From: Thermomucor indicae-seudaticae | Taxonomy: Eukaryota > Mucoromycota > Mucoromycetes > Mucorales > Lichtheimiaceae | Direction of reading: 5' to 3' | Length of the DNA: 27,873 nucleotides | NCBI GenBank assembly: GCA_000787465.1 | Contig: JSYX01000471.1 | Location: forward strand, 1-27,873 | Shown here: one piece after another, positions 14,396-27,873 of the stretch | Numbering within the stretch: the first letter of the stretch is position 1 | Layout: every line of letters begins with the position of its first letter | Position numbers and translations under genes: made by a program | The notes under the pieces: model-generated | Told to the model about the DNA's origin: nothing | The model's input: only the letters and a program-made list of their open reading frames with translations | The model's database searches: none

Positions 14396-16058
14396 GAAAG
14401 ACTTCTGTATCCGAAAAAATTCTTTTTTTTTCAAGCAGCAAGCTCATAAGTCCGCTCTTGGAGGACAAAAGGCACAGAAAAGTACGTAAATGATAAGCAT
14501 ATACTGGCCATAGATGTCAATAAATATTTGCTATCTGAAGTGACACAAAGCAGAAGAAGCACGAGGTATGAAAATGTACGGTATATGTAACCGATATGTT
14601 TTTATCAAATACCTGTGTTGAGTCGATCTAAACAAAGTCTATACCGTGTCATGATATCTCGGTAACATGACTACGTTTGTTACATAAGAAAAGCATCGTT
14701 TCAATACTTGAAACCGTATTGAGACAATGTTGAGACGAAAAAATCTCTAAAGTGCTGATTCGAATCGTCTCAATATGCGCGGCGGCCGCGTTCAATATGT
14801 GTTAATGTTGATGCGCGTCATGCTGCAGAGGAAGTTTCCACCGGAAAATAAGCGCCCTTCCTATATACTGGAGTCAGAACAGACGTCTCAGTATGTAGAA
14901 CAGCACTGACATGATCTTCGAAAACTGAAAGTCGCCTGGAAAAGCGTCTTAAAAGGAAGACAAACAACGTATTAAACAACTTCGTCTTCTCTCTTTTTTG
15001 GGGCTTCAGAGAACTCAACTGCAACTCTTGAAGTTTAGCTCAAAGCCATTATGGGCCGTCAGTCTTAACAAATTCCATGTACTGCTTTTTGAAGTAACGT
15101 TTGCGTTGCTCGAAAGGTCTGTTTTGCGTAAAGCATAAACCAAAATTTGCGCTCAGCAGAAGTTCAGTCTGCGCCGAGCATAAAGTACGATTTACGCCAG
15201 TGCAAACCACATCTGAACCGAATGAAAGAAAGAGTATTTGCGCGCAACTAATATCACACATAGCTGCGACAATTTGGAACCATTCTTTGGTTTCAGTCAG
15301 ACTTACTGATGGATATTTGCTCACAGTGACGTATGACGGTCATTTTTTCGTATAAAAAGCTAGTCCTGGTTTGTTTCTGTTGGAGGATGTGGGCCGAGGA
15401 GGGGGCGTGTCATGCCTTATAGTCATGGAAAGACGTTATATGGAATAGCATCCGTCGCCCCGAAAGTTCCCAATTGGATCCAATACGTTCGTTTTTTTTT
15501 CGAGCACCGTTCGTGAAAAGGCAAGGTGTTCTTTCTGCTTTGATACACCGGAAAGTTACAGTTGTATTCTGTGAAGTGATTTTTTGCTTGCTTTGCTTTG
15601 CTTTCTTTCTCTTTTTTAACTGTTATTCCCGTAATAAAAACGGGTCGATGTGTACAGGGTAAGGCTTCTCTGCTTTTTGCTTACTTGCAGTAGATGCTAA
15701 ATGATGCACGCAAATTCCATGTCTTCGATTACGCAAATCTGATTCGTACAACACGCAATATTCTGTGTCCTACACTGCAAATTGTCATATACATTTACGC
15801 GAAACTCTTGTAGAAATCCCGTATTTATGGTTCTGGAACGAATATTGCAGATTACTGATAAATGGCCAGATTTCGAAAGAATATGGCTGGATGACGTGTT
15901 CAGATAGCGTCATATTCATTGGCTCAAAATGACAAGAAAGAGTGGGTGAAAGCCAGTGGATTGCAAGAATATAATACAATGAGAATCGCTGTTTCAATTT
16001 TCTTATTGATGAAAAAGGGAGCTCGGTTGTGACACAGCTCATCGTTTCTCTCTTTCTG
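14396..16058. other. Divergent spacer between REI1 and cystathionine gamma-lyase
   Basis: About 1.7 kb without a supported gene. It must carry both promoters. A TATAAAAA stands at 15353-15360, too far from the lyase start to be its core promoter. A pyrimidine and GCTTT-rich run lies near 15586-15618. Open frames at 15049-15324 (minus) and 15785-16072 (minus) have no motif. Confidence 0.5.
14718..14774. repeat. Imperfect inverted repeat near the REI1 upstream region
   Basis: ATTGAGAC at 14718 and TTGAGACGA at 14730 are both complementary to the sequence around 14765-14774 (TCGTCTCAAT). Either pairing would form a hairpin. A GC-rich patch (GCGCGGCGGCCGCG) follows directly. It could be a protein-binding site or chance; it lies about 330 bases upstream of the REI1 start. 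Confidence 0.4.
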
Positions 16059-17367
16059 ATGTCTCCCTCCAACGACGCTTCTGCTACAGGATTCAGTACG
16101 CGCGCAGTTCATGCTGGCCTTGAGGCCGATCCGAATACAGGCGCAGTGATTCCTCCGATCTCTGTTTCCACAACCTTCAAGCAGTCAGCGGCGGGTGTAC
16201 ACCTGGTAAAGCGTCCTCGTTTCTTGTAGCCTCAACGTTGATTTGACGAGAAGAAAAAATTTTTCCCACGCTTATAGGGTTACGAATACTCCCGCTCCGG
16301 TAACCCAACGCGTGCCAACTTTGAAAACGCTGTAGCAGCATTAGAAAACGCAAAGTATGGTGTGGCTTTCGCTTCCGGGTCGTCCGTTACTGCTTCTATT
16401 CTCGGCACTCTTCAGACCGGATCTCATTTGCTGTCGGTGAATGACGTTTATGGCGGAACCTATCGTTATTTCACCAAGGTGGCTGTACACAATGGGGTTG
16501 AAGCAACCTTTGTCGATCTCGAGGATCCCAGCAAAATCGCTGCAGAATTACGACCGAACACAAAGGTATCTTTTGTTTGTCCCTGTCAGGTTTGCAACGA
16601 GCGCTTACAACGTTGTGGTTCTTCAGATTGTGTGGATTGAGTCACCGACCAACCCGACTTTACGACTCGTTGATATTCAAGCAGTTGCTAAAGCTACCAA
16701 GGAGCATGGCGCTCTCTTGGTTGTTGACAACACTTTTATGAGCCCATACTTCCAGCAGCCCCTGTCCCTTGGAGCTGACATCGTGGTCCACTCAGTCACA
16801 AAGTATATCAACGGCCACTCGGATGTCGTTATGGGTGTCGCAGTGACCAACAACGAAGAATTGTATCAGAAGTTGATCTTTATCCAAAACTCGATGGGCG
16901 CTGTGCCTTCTGCATTGGACTGTTTCCTTGCAAGACGTGGGCTGATGACTCTCGAACTTCGCATGCAGAGACATGAACAGAACGCGCTTGCCGTAGCAAA
17001 GTTTCTGGAGAAGCATCCACGTGTTCGTGAAGTCATTTATCCGGGTTTGGAATCACATCCTCAGCATGAGCTTGCCCGACGGCAACAGAAAGGTTTCGGT
17101 GGCATGTTGTCTTTCCGTATTGAAGGCAACTTGGATAACGTCAACAAGCTCTTGGGTCGTCTGCAAATCATTACGCTTGCAGAATCCCTTGGTGGTGTAG
17201 AATCATTGATTGAAGTGCCTGCTATCATGACGCACGCTAGCTTGAGTCCTGAAGCACGCGCTGCTCTGGGCATCACTGAGACACTGCTTCGCTTATCCGT
17301 TGGCATCGAAAACCCCGAAGATCTGATCAACGACCTGAACCAGGCATTAGAACATGCTTATTCGTAA
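16059..17367 (+). CDS. CYS3: Cystathionine gamma-lyase (three exons)
   Basis: A PLP enzyme of the Cys/Met metabolism family that splits cystathionine to cysteine, 2-oxobutyrate and ammonia in transsulfuration. Exons are 16059-16205, 16278-16565 and 16627-17367, giving 391 residues, the usual length. All introns are phase 0. Family motifs: STRAVHAGLE near the start, YEYSRSGNPTR, ASGSSVTASIL, VVDNTFMSPY with the cofactor aspartate, and HSVTKYINGHSDVVMG with the PLP-binding lysine at about 204. The end has SLGGVESLIEVPAIMTHAS and LRLSVGIEN. The SLGGVESLIE..A.MTH pattern fits gamma-lyase better than gamma-synthase or beta-lyase, although these are close relatives. No targeting signal is evident, so it is probably cytosolic. 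It is divergent from REI1 and followed on the same strand by the demethylase gene. Confidence 0.97.
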
Positions 17368-23240: not shown

Positions 23241-25222
23241 AATTCAAAAAGTCGAAATGCGCGCGCGGACCAGACGGAACATTTGACACGAAGGACGGGA
23301 AATCAATTTCCAGGGCCAAAAGGGTTCCTGTTTTCTTGTTTCCTGTTTCGGCAAAGTTCTTATTCACGGAACGCTTGTCTTTGCAAATGATTTGTCCAGT
23401 TCGAGTGCTCAAGCATAGAAGCAACCGGTAGTGGCGAGTCGACAGGCACCTGGTCTTCCAAAAAAAAAAAGTTTCATAACAAGCCGGCATTACGTGAAAC
23501 AGTGTGCGTCAGCGTACGAAAGCTTAAAGTACCTTTGCTGATTCTTCAGGTGCGATTCCGCTGCGTACATTAACGAGATGCATGCTTTTGCCTTTTCCCT
23601 CGAGACACAGCTCGATCTAGTACAACAACCAAAGCAGGAAACAGTTCAAGTGGACAAATGACCAGTGGGTTCTGGCAAGATGGTTCTGCATGTGTATACC
23701 CAGAGAAGTATGACCGATCGTACCTGTCCTATGCAGAGAGAGAAAGCTTTACAAATAGATAACAACATAATTCCAACGGTAAATTTCGGCGATGGTTCTC
23801 AACGGTGATATAGGCGTTGTGGAGAGTATTGGCGTCGTCCGACTAGTGGATGGTAGCATGAGTACATCCTATGAAACTCTGCAAGACTTCTTGTCAAGCA
23901 CCACGGCGAAGATTGGGCGGGCCAGAGAGCGGGTGGGAGGGCGGGCAGGAGTGCGGATTTCTGAGCGATTTGGTGAAATCCGCCCTTTTCGCCGTAGTGA
24001 AGTAGTGTAAACGCACTTTGTAAAAACTAAGATTGGCCGAGGGTTTCCTGTGAATGCCGTCTTATGCTTGAGTTCTGGGTGATGCTCGTTCAGTCTTAGA
24101 GTACTGTAATCATTATTCCCTATCCTAGCAATATCACGTTGATCTCAGATTGTCCGAACAGAATCAAGATACACAGATGAGTGAGAATAACATGCTACTT
24201 CAACAGTCGAGGCAATTGACATTATCCTGAATGTAGCATGTGCTCTTGTTTATTATGTTTGCTATTTGTCAACAAACGATAAGACGACGATAGAATAAAT
24301 CTTCTTTAATTAATGAGGAACGTACGCGTATGATCAACGGCTCTCCACCTCTCAAAAGTTCGTCACTCACGTTGTTAAGCCAGAGGTATTTCAATTGACT
24401 TCTAGCATGTAATCCACGATTTAAATCTCTCATGTTATCAAGGGCTTACTGCACAGCATAAAACGGCGAGCGAAACCGGCAATGCTTAGTCATATGACGT
24501 TTGGGAGCAGAACACTCGCAGTCGAGGGAGCACCCGGACGCTCTTCTAATCACCCTGTCCAAGCTTACAGCTTATTTTCACAAGAAATCCACGCATCTCT
24601 ACTGACTTCATCCGTCACTTCAAGGAGTCGAAGCAGTATGACGTTACCCTTGCAGTTCAGCATGGTCTGTTTACCAACGGACTACTAACAGTACGATGAG
24701 CTGTGCCATTGCTTCGACAGACCCACCGTCATATGCTCCGTACTGCATTCCTTTGACATTTTAAGTCATCACTGAGCATCAGACGGTAAAACATCATAGG
24801 CGATTCAACCGGCTGCACATAAAGGGATTTACTCTCCTGACCATTGGAAAGAAAACGTCTGGAATGGACTGACGCCATGCGTGCATGCATTGTATGTGGA
24901 CAGCAAGGAAAGGAGAAATATTGTCTCACGCAAAATCTTCCAGAAAAGGAGAAAAATCTCAGTTGGACACCCGGTCCGGCAATCGCTGACAACAGGGACT
25001 AATGAAAATTTTTTTCGTCCTTTTATTTTCCTTCCTTTTCTTCTAGAACTTTCCTTCATTTTCCCCAACGCACGGTCAACGCCACAAGTAACGTAAACAT
25101 TGTGAAAACACGGCAAACCCACGATTTAATGCCTTCAGAACCAAAGTGCTACGCTTGGACACGATAGTAAGCTCGGAACCTTATATTGGAGAGGGGCACT
25201 GCTCTGATTTTTATTGTCACAG
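23241..25222. other. Gene-poor stretch upstream of the Bud4-like gene
   Basis: No supported gene in about 2 kb. The part next to 23240 must contain the promoter and 5' leader of the Bud4-like gene. A plus-strand frame from 23542 to 23803 is open except for one stop at 23642 and lacks motifs. A short plus-strand stretch at 24878-25002 reads MRACIVCGQQGKEKYC and on to a stop, with a C-x2-C pair. A strong acceptor-like tract (CCTTTTCTTCTAG) stands near 25046, so upstream exons of the next candidate gene may lie here. Confidence 0.4.
23915..23945 (+). other. G-quadruplex-type motif
   Basis: Six GGG runs occur within 31 bases. The last four (GGGTGGGAGGGCGGG) are separated by single bases, the strongest loop arrangement for a G-quadruplex. 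An eight-base inverted repeat follows (GCGGATTT at 23953, AAATCCGC at 23976). Confidence 0.6.
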
Positions 25223-26245
25223 CTACGTTTGACGCCACGCCTCTGCAAAGTGCTGCGCCATCGGCTTACCCAACTTGTAATTCATATGATTTATTAAAAC
25301 TCAAGACAAGTAAGTGATCTTATCCTTTGATATCATCATTCCGGAGACGTTCTGACAACGGTTATCCATCAGAAAAGAAAACAAAAAAGGGTGGGTTTCT
25401 TGCGGACTTCCTATTCTGGACTTGATCTAACTTTGAGTTCTCATTGATAGGAGCACGCTTTCTGCTCATTCCATTCATGGTTATGACGGCATCCACAACA
25501 GCAGTCCTTTGTTTCAAAAACAAAATAAAAGAAGTACAAATGGTTTCTGTGTTGCGGGCTGGATCCGTTTTATTTTTGAGTTCTGATTAGAAAAAATAAG
25601 TGATGTGATCCTTTGGATCGATGATTCTAGTGGTGCTTTGAAGAACGTTTTCTTTACTAGAAACAAAGCGGGAAAAGGGAAAAAAGTAAGTAAGATGGTT
25701 GCTAAACTTGCGATACCTGACTGTTCTGACTTTGATTGCTCAAAGGAAAAAGACGAAGTAGTTCGATCTTTTGATGGATGTTTCTAGCGATTTCCTAACA
25801 ATGATTCTGTATCAGGGAAGAAAGGTAGGCATCACGGTTCCTGAACTTCCTATAGTGTGTTTGTTGTCACCTCAAGTTCTCATAGACGAAAAAGCCAACA
25901 ATCAAAGCCGAGCCTGGTGTCGGTCGCCCAACTCGCTAAAATATGCAAAAAGGTAAGTGATCTGATGCTTGGAACCCATCAATCCGGGTGATATTCTGAC
26001 GATTGCTCTCCAATAGAAAAAAGTGGCAACGTTTCACATTCAAATACCATGTCCACGCCTGTTGCAAACGAGCGCCTAAATTTCAATCAAGCAACCAATT
26101 TCCGCAACATGGAGAATCCAAACCCCATCGCTCCACTGCAGGCGACACGATCTGTTTAATCAAAGCCCTGGTATCGACAAGTCTCATCCACACTGCATTG
26201 AAGGAATCTTTTGGCCGACCACGTCCTTCAAGCTCTGTACCGTGA
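25223..26245 (+). CDS. Candidate micro-exon gene, lysine-rich, unknown family (partial 5' end)
   Basis: Proposed exons are 25223-25309, 25373-25390, 25451-25533, 25591-25596, 25661-25685, 25746-25757, 25816-25824, 25886-25952 and 26017-26245. Joined, they form one frame without a stop until TGA at 26243. The protein runs TFDATPLQSAAPSAYPTCNS, then short Lys/Arg-rich micro-exon pieces (KKKTKK, KQSGKREKRKRRRKK), then AWCRSPNSLKYAKRKKWQRF, then HVHACCKRAPKF and a polar end. Most introns have GTAAGT-like donors and CTGAC/CTAAC branch points 15-20 bases before the acceptor. The six-base exon requires an AT donor at 25597; one 127-base intron (25534-25660) would avoid it in the same phase. The 5' end is not found; the acceptor at 25221-25222 implies at least one more exon. 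A-rich pieces avoid stops easily, so the gene is uncertain. I recognise no family. Confidence 0.35.
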
Positions 26246-26356
26246 CTGACGAGCAAGAACCCGTTTCCTTTGCATAACAAGTCACGACCTAAAGGAAGAC
26301 GATAAAACTTTGAATCCTGGCGATTGTGAAAATGTCCACTTTCGGCATTATGATCT

Positions 26357-26525
26357 TTTATTACGCTCTGCAAGCGTCCCGTTTGTACCAGTCGCAAGTT
26401 TATTACATTGTGCAAGCGCCAGTTTGTCTCAAGCTGCATGTCTATTACATTCTCAAAGCGTCACCTTCGTCTGAAGTCGCAAGATTAATACATCGTGCAA
26501 GCATCGGTTTGTCTGATGTCGCCAG
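26357..26525 (+). repeat. Degenerate 42-base tandem repeat, four copies
   Basis: Copies at 26357-26398, 26399-26440, 26441-26483 and 26484-26525 share the pattern TATTACAT.GTGCAAGCG then GTTTGTCT then AGTCGCAAG. The period of 42 (43 once) equals 14 codons, and one plus-strand frame stays open through all copies with repeats beginning VYYI(V/L)(Q/K)A. Identity between copies is partial, so the expansion is old. Confidence 0.7.
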
Positions 26526-26814
26526 AGGACAGACAAGAAACCTTCTACGGGGTTGTACCAAGTACTGCACGATAGAGGACACAAGACGACAATGGCAAGG
26601 TTAGCGATTATGCCAACAAGGGCCTCTTCTTCAAAATCTGGGCTATTGCTCGAATCCTCGAAGAAGCGATTGTTCAATAACAGCGACGTATTGGCCATCA
26701 AGTCCCGCCATGGCAATGAATCGACTTTCCTGCAAATATGTACATGCGGGTCCACCGGTCACGATTACCAGGGTCTCCGAACGAAAATGGTGGAGGCTGA
26801 CCGCGGGCCTAAAC

Positions 26815-26911
26815 GGCGGGGGCCGGGTGGGCGGGAACGACAGCGGATCGTCGACAGGAGCGATGGGCGGCCGACTGCGGGCCGAAACACGGCGGGGGTT
26901 GGGTGGGCGGG
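26815..26911 (+). repeat. Two G-quadruplex-type repeats 76 bases apart
   Basis: GGCGGGGGCCGGGTGGGCGG at 26815-26834 (one further G follows) and GGCGGGGGTTGGGTGGGCGG at 26891-26910 (one further G follows) differ only at two bases. Each has four G-runs with loops of 1-2 bases. The surrounding sequence is much more GC-rich than the A+T-rich DNA that follows. Confidence 0.75.
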
Positions 26912-27019
26912 CACGAAGATGGCGACCGGCACCGGTAAGATCTACTGCTTTAAAACTCTGTGTTTTCGAAACGGTCACTAATTGCAAATGCCGTTTATAC
27001 CGTCGTTGACCTTAGGCCG

Positions 27020-27055
27020 CGAGGTGTCCCGCTTCGGGCGCCTCGAGGGTTTTTT
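27020..27055 (+). other. GC-rich hairpin followed by a T-run
   Basis: CGAGG (27020-27024) pairs with CCTCG (27041-27045), and CCCG (27028-27031) pairs with CGGG (27035-27038) around a CTT loop. Six T bases follow at 27050-27055. It resembles the 3' end of a small RNA ended by RNA polymerase III, but no A/B box or known RNA was recognised upstream. Confidence 0.4.
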
Positions 27056-27255
27056 CTGCCGCCTTTTTCCCCTCTTTTACCCAAAAAAAAGAAAAAATTA
27101 ATTTTATAAAAAAAATTATAGACTAATTCATAGAATAATATATAGAAAAAGCAACATGCGCTGGCGCTGGTTGTAGAAAAATTTAAAAAAGTACATCGGT
27201 TACTATCTCATTAACTGCTTAGAAAAAAACCTAAAAAAGAAAAGAAGATACAAAG

Positions 27256-27873
27256 TAAGTACTACGGTCTCCAAGTATGCTATCCTGGATTTCTTCTAAC
27301 TTTTCTTTCCGACAGAAAAATACAAAAACCTTGGTGCTGGTCACCGTTTGTAAAAAAAAAAAACAAAAATCGTTTGTAAAAAAGGTAACTGGTGTTGCCT
27401 TTTCGAGATACTTTATTCGCGCGGTGCACTGACTATGTTTCTGCACTAGAAAATAAATACAAAAAATAAAAATAATAAGAAAGTAAGTACCCTTGTCGTT
27501 TGAGCTCATCGTTCCAACGCTTCTCTAACAATGCTATTTTGGTAGAAAAATGTTATTTTGTACAAAAAGTGTAAAAAAACAAAAAAGTAAGTGTCCTGAT
27601 GACTCAGGTTTGCTCTTCTAGCAATGGTATACTGACGGTCGTTCTCCAATAGAAAAAAAAAAAGAAAAATAGAGAAACTTACGCTGGTTGTGCAGTTTGT
27701 ATGAAAAAAGGTAAGTCTATGATATGCGTGTTTAATCCTTATTTCCGTTTACTAACTGGTAACATTCTGTCAGATAATTACGAAGCAGCGCTGGCGCTTG
27801 TTTGTTTAAAAAAGTAAGTATGCTCAATACATCATGAGCATCATCACCGTGGATACTGACTTTAACTCTCTCT
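27256..27873 (+). other. Array of six consecutive spliceosomal introns with micro-exons
   Basis: Introns at 27256-27315, 27385-27449, 27483-27545, 27587-27652, 27711-27773 and from 27814 past the window end. Five of six donors are GTAAGT; the other is GTAACT. Each complete intron has CTAAC or CTGAC shortly before a CAG or TAG acceptor. The pieces between are 69, 33, 41, 58 and 40 bases, very A-rich, and several end in a GCTGG...TTTGT...AAAAAA block just before the donor. A lysine-rich frame can be drawn through the first four pieces but stops in the 58-base piece; no single frame stays open throughout with these boundaries. It may be part of a gene continuing to the right, a spliced non-coding RNA, or a repeat family carrying splice signals. 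Confidence 0.5.

Follow-up and report, generated by a model that had tools for sequence, protein, structure and literature searches.

A tandem row of short introns as the probable A-rich linker of an apparently non-coding, multi-copy RNA gene in Thermomucor indicae-seudaticae

Introduction

Very short exons arranged in a row are characteristic of the micro-exon genes of schistosomes, which encode proteins. The locus described here resembles these genes in its row of short exons and differs from them in that the row shows no coding signal. The nearest known architecture is that of SNHG14, the non-coding host gene of SNORD115 and SNORD116, for which tandem intron runs of 29 and 48 are reported (PMC11608373). 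Non-coding character and long tandem intron runs are apparently common to both genes; the introns of SNHG14, however, carry box C/D-like RNAs according to the same text, whereas no exact C box is found in the introns considered here and the covarying structure lies downstream of them. Single cases are known in which introns were gained by tandem duplication. In a reported example, where new introns arose from duplication of a segment with an intron and exon parts (PMC4974935), the process is the one proposed here, but a single intron of a protein gene was involved, in contrast to repeated two-intron (A+B) units of an apparently non-coding gene. Introners likewise form families of similar introns; they are reported to enter many genes (PMC9860276; PMC4457414), whereas one of the intron types described below, type A, has been found in just one locus family. 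Intronic snoRNA clusters of fungi (PMC3596301) share with this locus a fungal host, non-coding content, and intron gain and loss, but no snoRNA is recognised here. Conserved structural RNAs have been recognised in fungi by covariation, as has the folded domain of this locus; that screen began with five ascomycete genomes, and the string "mucor" is absent from its main text (PMC8216456). Among the literature matches listed, which comprised titles and the starts of abstracts with subscription papers mostly outside, neither an RNA of this kind nor tandem intron arrays in Mucorales appeared.

Results

The window, meaning the whole stretch of DNA analysed, is contig C403 at its full length of 27,873 bases, from a genome of 24.77 Mb in 735 contigs. 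At 16627-17364 lies an exon for cystathionine gamma-lyase with 80-81% identity to Lichtheimia proteins; other Mucorales supply most of the named matches that come next, which marks the source as a mucoralean fungus.

Six introns, probably real, follow one another on the forward (+) strand at the end of the window and constitute array 2. The first (27255-27315, 61 nt) is of type A (E 1.5e-13), and the third (27483-27545, 63 nt; E 2.4e-11) and fourth (27587-27652, 66 nt; E 1.4e-9) are of type B, each of these three having been used in building the model that scores it. The second (27385-27449, 65 nt) is weakly type B-like in its 3′ part (type-B model E 0.062). The fifth, termed y (27711-27773, 63 nt), corresponds to an intron at the same place in both subfamilies of the locus family described below, its likeness between subfamilies being a short stretch judged by eye. 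The sixth, termed z (27814-27873, 60 nt visible) and recognised by homology and intron signals, is cut by the contig end. A-rich exons of 69, 33, 41, 58, and 40 nt lie between the introns. The donor is GTAAGT in four of the five complete introns and GTAACT in one; all five contain CTAAC or CTGAC, and their terminal CAG or TAG lies 20-22 nt from the start of this motif. Donor, branch point, and acceptor are thus placed as originally predicted in every complete intron, and intron 6 retains a donor and a branch motif.

A simple intron detector run over 27240-27873 recovered four of the six array introns, one of them with a shifted start, and missed the other two. In dinucleotide shuffles of the same region (n=2000) the detector found 0.30 introns on average and three at most, so that 0/2000 shuffles reached four. 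With strict GTAAGT donors three introns were found, compared with a mean of 0.03, a maximum of two, and 0/2000 shuffles equalling the count. The row of six introns separated by 33-69 bases, as first described, is therefore confirmed by both the sequence itself and its detection beyond chance, except that it begins at 27255, one base before the position originally given (27256).

The array had also been thought to run on past the window. The contig does end in the middle of intron 6, at 27873, but contigs C569 and C505, both of which open with the window's last 23 bases, close this intron and then leave the array. When 21 of these 23 bases were sought with at most one mismatch, only three places were found, namely the window, C569, and C505. 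Intron 6 is closed after six more bases in C569 and after four more in C505, and in both a short A-rich exon is followed by GCGTCAGCC..., with which a GC-rich domain begins. C569 and C505 share 90% identity over 2.2 kb, and either may be the window's own continuation. Array 2 very probably stops at the close of intron 6 in a continuation of this kind. In C387 and in the subfamily 2 loci C412, C217, C115, C77, and C597, too, no further intron stands between the homologue of intron z and the GC-rich domain. Contigs C403, C569, C505, C597, C170, and C451 start or end inside the locus family, and the assembly there may be collapsed or broken. The expected continuation of the periodic pattern in the flanks holds on one side: downstream the array appears to be over within 6 nt, but upstream there is another array, and paralogues contain arrays of a similar kind.

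The locus can be followed upstream through several further parts on the same (+) strand. Its 5′ part (24210-25309), a probable promoter and leader, shows low but detectable similarity to paralogues: window positions 24210-25134 are 57% identical to C216 over 952 columns, and 24158-26262 are 56% identical to C387 over 2376 columns. Even the longest alignments between the window's locus and its paralogues are only 56-68% identical. Array 1 (25310-26016), the second and more decayed array, which is missing from the original list, comprises seven introns assigned by the type models in the order B-A-B-A-B-A-B, starting at 25310, 25391/25404, 25597, 25686, 25756, 25825, and 25953; an untyped candidate at 25542 was added by intron detection. 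Several of its splice signals are decayed, and by hand count three of the eight introns (25310, 25391, and 25953) are close to consensus at the donor, the CTRAY branch, and the YAG alike. The segment between the arrays contains a tandem repeat of 42 bp x 3.9 (26357-26522, from a tandem repeat search). A GC-rich block follows at 26787-27098, and two stretches of it, 26787-26840 and 26869-27098, show 78-85% identity to C216, C387, and C305. Within it an 81-nt intron of the form GTAAGA...CACTAAT...TTAG (26935-27015), identified by eye, has counterparts in the same three contigs and was likewise absent from the original list. Just past its splice acceptor stands a hairpin, GAGGTGTCCCGCTTCGGGCGCCTC (27021-27044, by eye), followed by a T run. 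A self-complementary exon motif, GCGCTGGCGC, assigned to repeat family D9, occurs 5′ of array 2 (27158-27167) and again between introns 5 and 6 (27788-27797). Finally, a 32-nt element with GT...AG ends and A-rich flanks (27191-27222, by eye) is probably an intron shrunk below splicing size, C387 having a 66-nt intron at this place.

A DNA search with the C216 copy gave 27 matches on 14 contigs including the window (C216, C387, C305, C569, C505, C412, C217, C115, C77, C597, C170, C496, C451, and C403), which need not amount to 14 copies, as C569 or C505 may continue the window and others may belong together in a single copy. When the C412 copy served as the query, short pieces appeared on C685 and C490 as well, along with second locations on C77 and C412. 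All of these paralogues come from a single genome. C216 and C387 match in blocks across L004:3728-8502 (~4.8 kb), and the window matches C216 in blocks from 24210 to its end. Two subfamilies can be distinguished. Subfamily 1 consists of C403 (known only through array 2), C216, C387, and C305, with the order leader, array 1, inter-array segment, GC block with intron and hairpin, array 2, large GC-rich domain, and further exons. In the five readable loci of subfamily 2 only introns y and z, judged by eye, precede the folded domain; C170 begins within that domain. Introns y and z are thus shared by both subfamilies and are probably older than the split between them. Subfamily 1 loci contain about 7 to 14 array-intron candidates each (hand count), so that intact and decayed examples coexist in the same genome.

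The core of the folded domain, 30-31 bases taken without the first two, occurs exactly in eight contigs of this genome, with 0 control matches, and C387 carries the core pattern with one change. As would be expected of a fungal gene, neither the viral contigs of IMG/VR nor the prokaryote contigs of GTDB contain the core. The hexamer AATAAA, known as a poly(A) signal, occupies equivalent positions in C216 (L004:8431), C569 (1868), and C505 (1863), close to where the similarity ends on its 3′ side, and is missing from the corresponding place in C387; past it, C569 and C505 remain similar for some 340 bases.

Further duplications and repeats touch the family. C496 and C451 are truncated relics that share ~2.2 kb of 86% identical DNA, mostly outside the family and thus part of a larger segmental duplication. 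In three loci of subfamily 2, C412 (L044), C115 (L046), and C170 (L051), the unit of intron and hairpin is itself present as an a and a b copy in the locus, which gives the family another instance of tandem exon-intron duplication. A dispersed repeat of ~420 bases, which starts near TCACAGTGA...GACGGTCA...TATAAAAAGCTAG, is found at 15320-15735 of the window and at L004:8439-8859, where it adjoins the 3′ end of the structured RNA locus of C216; at least 36 matches, 69-86% identical, lie on 34 contigs outside C216.

The array introns are related to one another. When the interiors from donor to branch were compared among four loci, 54 of 703 pairs exceeded z>4 and none did so with shuffled interiors; the 38 introns had been delimited by hand, and a few wrong ends (one intron of 76 nt, three stopped early at an internal CAG or TAG) alter the interiors compared. 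Mean column identity is 76% for type A and 65% for type B. Sequence-only covariance models gave 14 type-A and 26 type-B matches (E up to 10) in 119,527 bases, a count in which the 11 and 13 array introns used to build the models (R1 and R3) are bound to match, and some of the weak matches are introns of one type recognised by the model of the other. All 14 and all 26 lie inside the four subfamily 1 loci, with none in the window's first 25,309 bases and none in ten other loci. The order of types in array 1, B-A-B-A-B-A-B in the window, is A-B-A-B-A-B in C387 (one B at only E 1.6), B-A-B-A-A-B in C305, and B-A-B in C216. In array 2 it is A-B-B in C216 and C387, A-(B)-B-B in the window (the bracketed B being intron 2, at E 0.062), and B-B in C305. 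Genome-wide, a 24-place pattern of the type-A interior allowing at most three mismatches was found at six places, all in C216, C387, and C305, compared with one for the reversed control; six is a lower bound because the window's own type-A introns are not among them. Taken together, the mutual homology, the alternation of A and B, and the confinement of type A argue for tandem duplication of an A+B pair rather than for introners, and such duplication explains the multiplication of the introns best.

There are signs that splicing mattered for intron z. In an alignment of seven loci from both subfamilies, anchored on the surroundings of the intron, pairwise identity is 86.5% for the six donor nucleotides and 100% for the branch A, compared with 55.7% for the interior. 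Individual losses occur, and some copies may be dying: a GC donor occurs at z in C597 and at y in C412, the acceptor AG of z is gone in C217, and the CTRAY branch motif of y is missing in C387, C77, and C597.

The domain downstream of array 2 appears to be a folded RNA whose covarying helices have been kept by compensating changes. RNAalifold predicted 86 pairs from nine copies, six of them changed on both sides. In a partly hand-drawn structure of 55 pairs (P1, P2, P4, and P5, with P2 drawn by hand), 97.3% of 484 cells from nine loci pair, compared with 43.3-56.4% when the partners are slid. The covariation score of this structure is 0.200 against 0.157 after shuffling (0/500); doubly changed cells number 14 against 5.1 (0/500) and pairs with changes on both sides five against 2.7 (8/500), with no difference in further pair types (24 against 23.5; 257/500). 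Independent compensating events are few, because most such changes follow the split between the subfamilies. P2 and P4 would cross, forming either a pseudoknot or alternative structures, and in C305 the 5′ strand of P4 is missing 10 of its 23 paired bases. A second hairpin further downstream has 21 pairs, four of them doubly changed, in 12 sequences from nine loci, three of which give two copies each.

Pairing is also conceivable around the introns. The motif GCGCYGGCGC flanks the array in the window (27158 and 27788), and related motif pairs are found in C387 and five subfamily 2 loci, in the latter flanking intron y; neither motif occurs within two mismatches in C216 or C305. In all seven loci that have both, the two motifs can pair at 9 or 10 of 10 positions, but pairing within and across loci is equal (mean 9.57 of 10 each), which gives no sign of covariation. 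An intron-bearing hairpin, GGGGAGCAAAC-intron-GTTTGCTCCCC, is by eye perfect in C216 and C305, contains one G-U in C387, is shorter in C217, and is weak or absent in C569, C505, C412, and C115. Rfam gave no match at gathering score across the window, and lax searches of 25000-27873 and of L004:4500-8900 returned only E values of 1-9, far below gathering scores. For the introns themselves a consensus fold was found neither in type B nor, apart from four weak pairs, in type A.

The exons and the downstream domain gave no sign of coding and are apparently non-coding. Spliced array 2 with its flanks amounts to 345 nt, 51% of them A, and contains 7, 6, and 3 stops in the three frames. The longest ATG open reading frames in five copies (129, 128, 167, 112, and 175 aa) are equalled in 11, 12, 2, 40, and 2 of 100 shuffles, and those of 167 aa (C387) and 175 aa (C412) lie in different parts of the locus. 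In an alignment of nine copies over 455 columns, 32 of 344 pairwise indel runs have a length divisible by three. Substitutions fall almost evenly on the three codon positions, both between C412 and three relatives (51, 41, and 55) and at same-frame sites of five copies (139/156/159). The frame tested in the downstream domain is stop-free in C569, C505, and C412 and contains one to four stops in the other six copies. A protein-coding micro-exon gene was rejected on the grounds that no frame is open through spliced array 2, that few indels are multiples of three, and that codon-position bias is absent from the downstream domain.

Discussion

Array 2 probably forms an A-rich linker within a folded RNA gene that appears to be non-coding and exists in several diverged copies. 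In its full form, as a multi-copy, spliced, structured non-coding RNA gene with locally amplified introns, this reading is assigned a probability of about 0.65. A Pol II transcript of several kilobases would begin upstream of array 1. From it the spliceosome would take out many introns of 60-66 nt by intron definition, the usual mode for introns this short, and the product would be polyadenylated. The tiny A-rich exons would then join into a flexible, unstructured linker (the spliced 345 nt in the case of array 2 and its flanks) that ties a small upstream hairpin domain to the large conserved folded domain downstream. Inside subfamily 1 the A+B intron pair would have multiplied in tandem, which the linker might tolerate because its exon sequence is little constrained. 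The gene itself appears to have multiplied through DNA duplication, as the promoter side and the introns were copied along. The two GCGCYGGCGC motifs could close the linker into a loop by a stem, and the folded domain would serve as a protein scaffold. The idea of a micro-exon gene contained in the original prediction survives in part: micro-exons with tandemly duplicated intron units fit, but a protein-coding version is contradicted by stops in all frames.

It is unlikely that the locus is instead a dispersed non-autonomous transposable element with introns that merely carries the array along. Such an element would explain why pieces lie on 14 contigs including the window, several of them at contig ends, and why the copies are diverged and partly truncated. 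However, when 700 bases around each end, as estimated from homology, were compared for terminal repeats, none were seen, C216 giving a single match of 10 bases (E 0.37) and C387 no match at all, and pairing has been maintained by changes on both sides. Moreover, copying cannot have proceeded via spliced RNA, as the copies have kept their introns.

A decaying intron-exon satellite or pseudogene family in which splicing has been lost is a decidedly weaker proposition. The many broken signals in the window's array 1, the loss of y or z splice signals in several copies, and the truncated relics on C496 and C451 would all be expected of it. Against this, the five complete introns of array 2 keep their signals despite paralogue identities of only 56-68%, the order of introns is common to the paralogues, and Tandem Repeats Finder reports nothing in 27255-27873 beyond a 39-base stretch. 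Satellite DNA of near-identical head-to-tail units was rejected, since introns of one type have mean column identities of only 76% and 65% and no such array was found at 27255-27873 beyond the 39-base stretch. Nor does the originally proposed free satellite of intron-exon units stand, given that the unit order is common to paralogues, that conserved hairpin-forming domains flank the array, and that matches to the intron models and to the type-A pattern are confined to the locus family.

Equally poor are the prospects of a host gene with small RNAs in its introns, comparable to SNHG14 with SNORD115/116, whose exons would be by-products. Tandem homologous introns in a non-coding gene, with the column identities of types A (76%) and B (65%), are what such a gene would present, and a C-like box (at most one mismatch) together with a D box occurs in three of 38 introns, compared with a mean of 0.51 in shuffled ones and three or more in 10 of 1000 shuffles. 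An exact C box, however, occurs in none of the 38, the three introns with C-like and D boxes are at non-matching places, and introns of 60-66 nt offer little room. The lack of a consensus fold in type B, the four weak pairs of type A, and the absence of an Rfam match at gathering score in the window also speak against this view, as does the position of the covarying structure downstream of the array.

That the array represents the 5′ UTR or the micro-exons of a protein-coding gene is very improbable. The reading frames of 175 aa (C412) and 167 aa (C387) are each reached by only two of 100 shuffles, and parts of one frame are open in several copies, but these two frames occupy different parts of the locus, indels of one and two bases break frames between copies, third positions show no excess of substitutions, and spliced array 2 has its 7, 6, and 3 stops. 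Introners, that is, mobile introns inserted repeatedly, would account for homologous introns of similar length in one gene but can hardly be entertained, since all six genome-wide matches to the type-A interior (type A being the type searched) lie inside the locus family and A and B alternate as tandem duplication predicts.

A bolder version of the preferred reading of a spliced, structured non-coding RNA gene is doubtful: a large undescribed multi-copy RNA of Mucorales might attain its mature form only after removal of the array. In that case the flanking motifs and the hairpin with an intron in its loop would form, or form efficiently, only after splicing, and intron removal would be a folding step.

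If the locus is transcribed, it represents a large structured RNA family without an Rfam match in the stretches searched. It would also provide a natural series of intron amplification, from y and z only in subfamily 2 to about 7 to 14 in subfamily 1, and it would become possible to test directly how tandem introns originate, how small an exon can be, and how splicing is linked to RNA folding.
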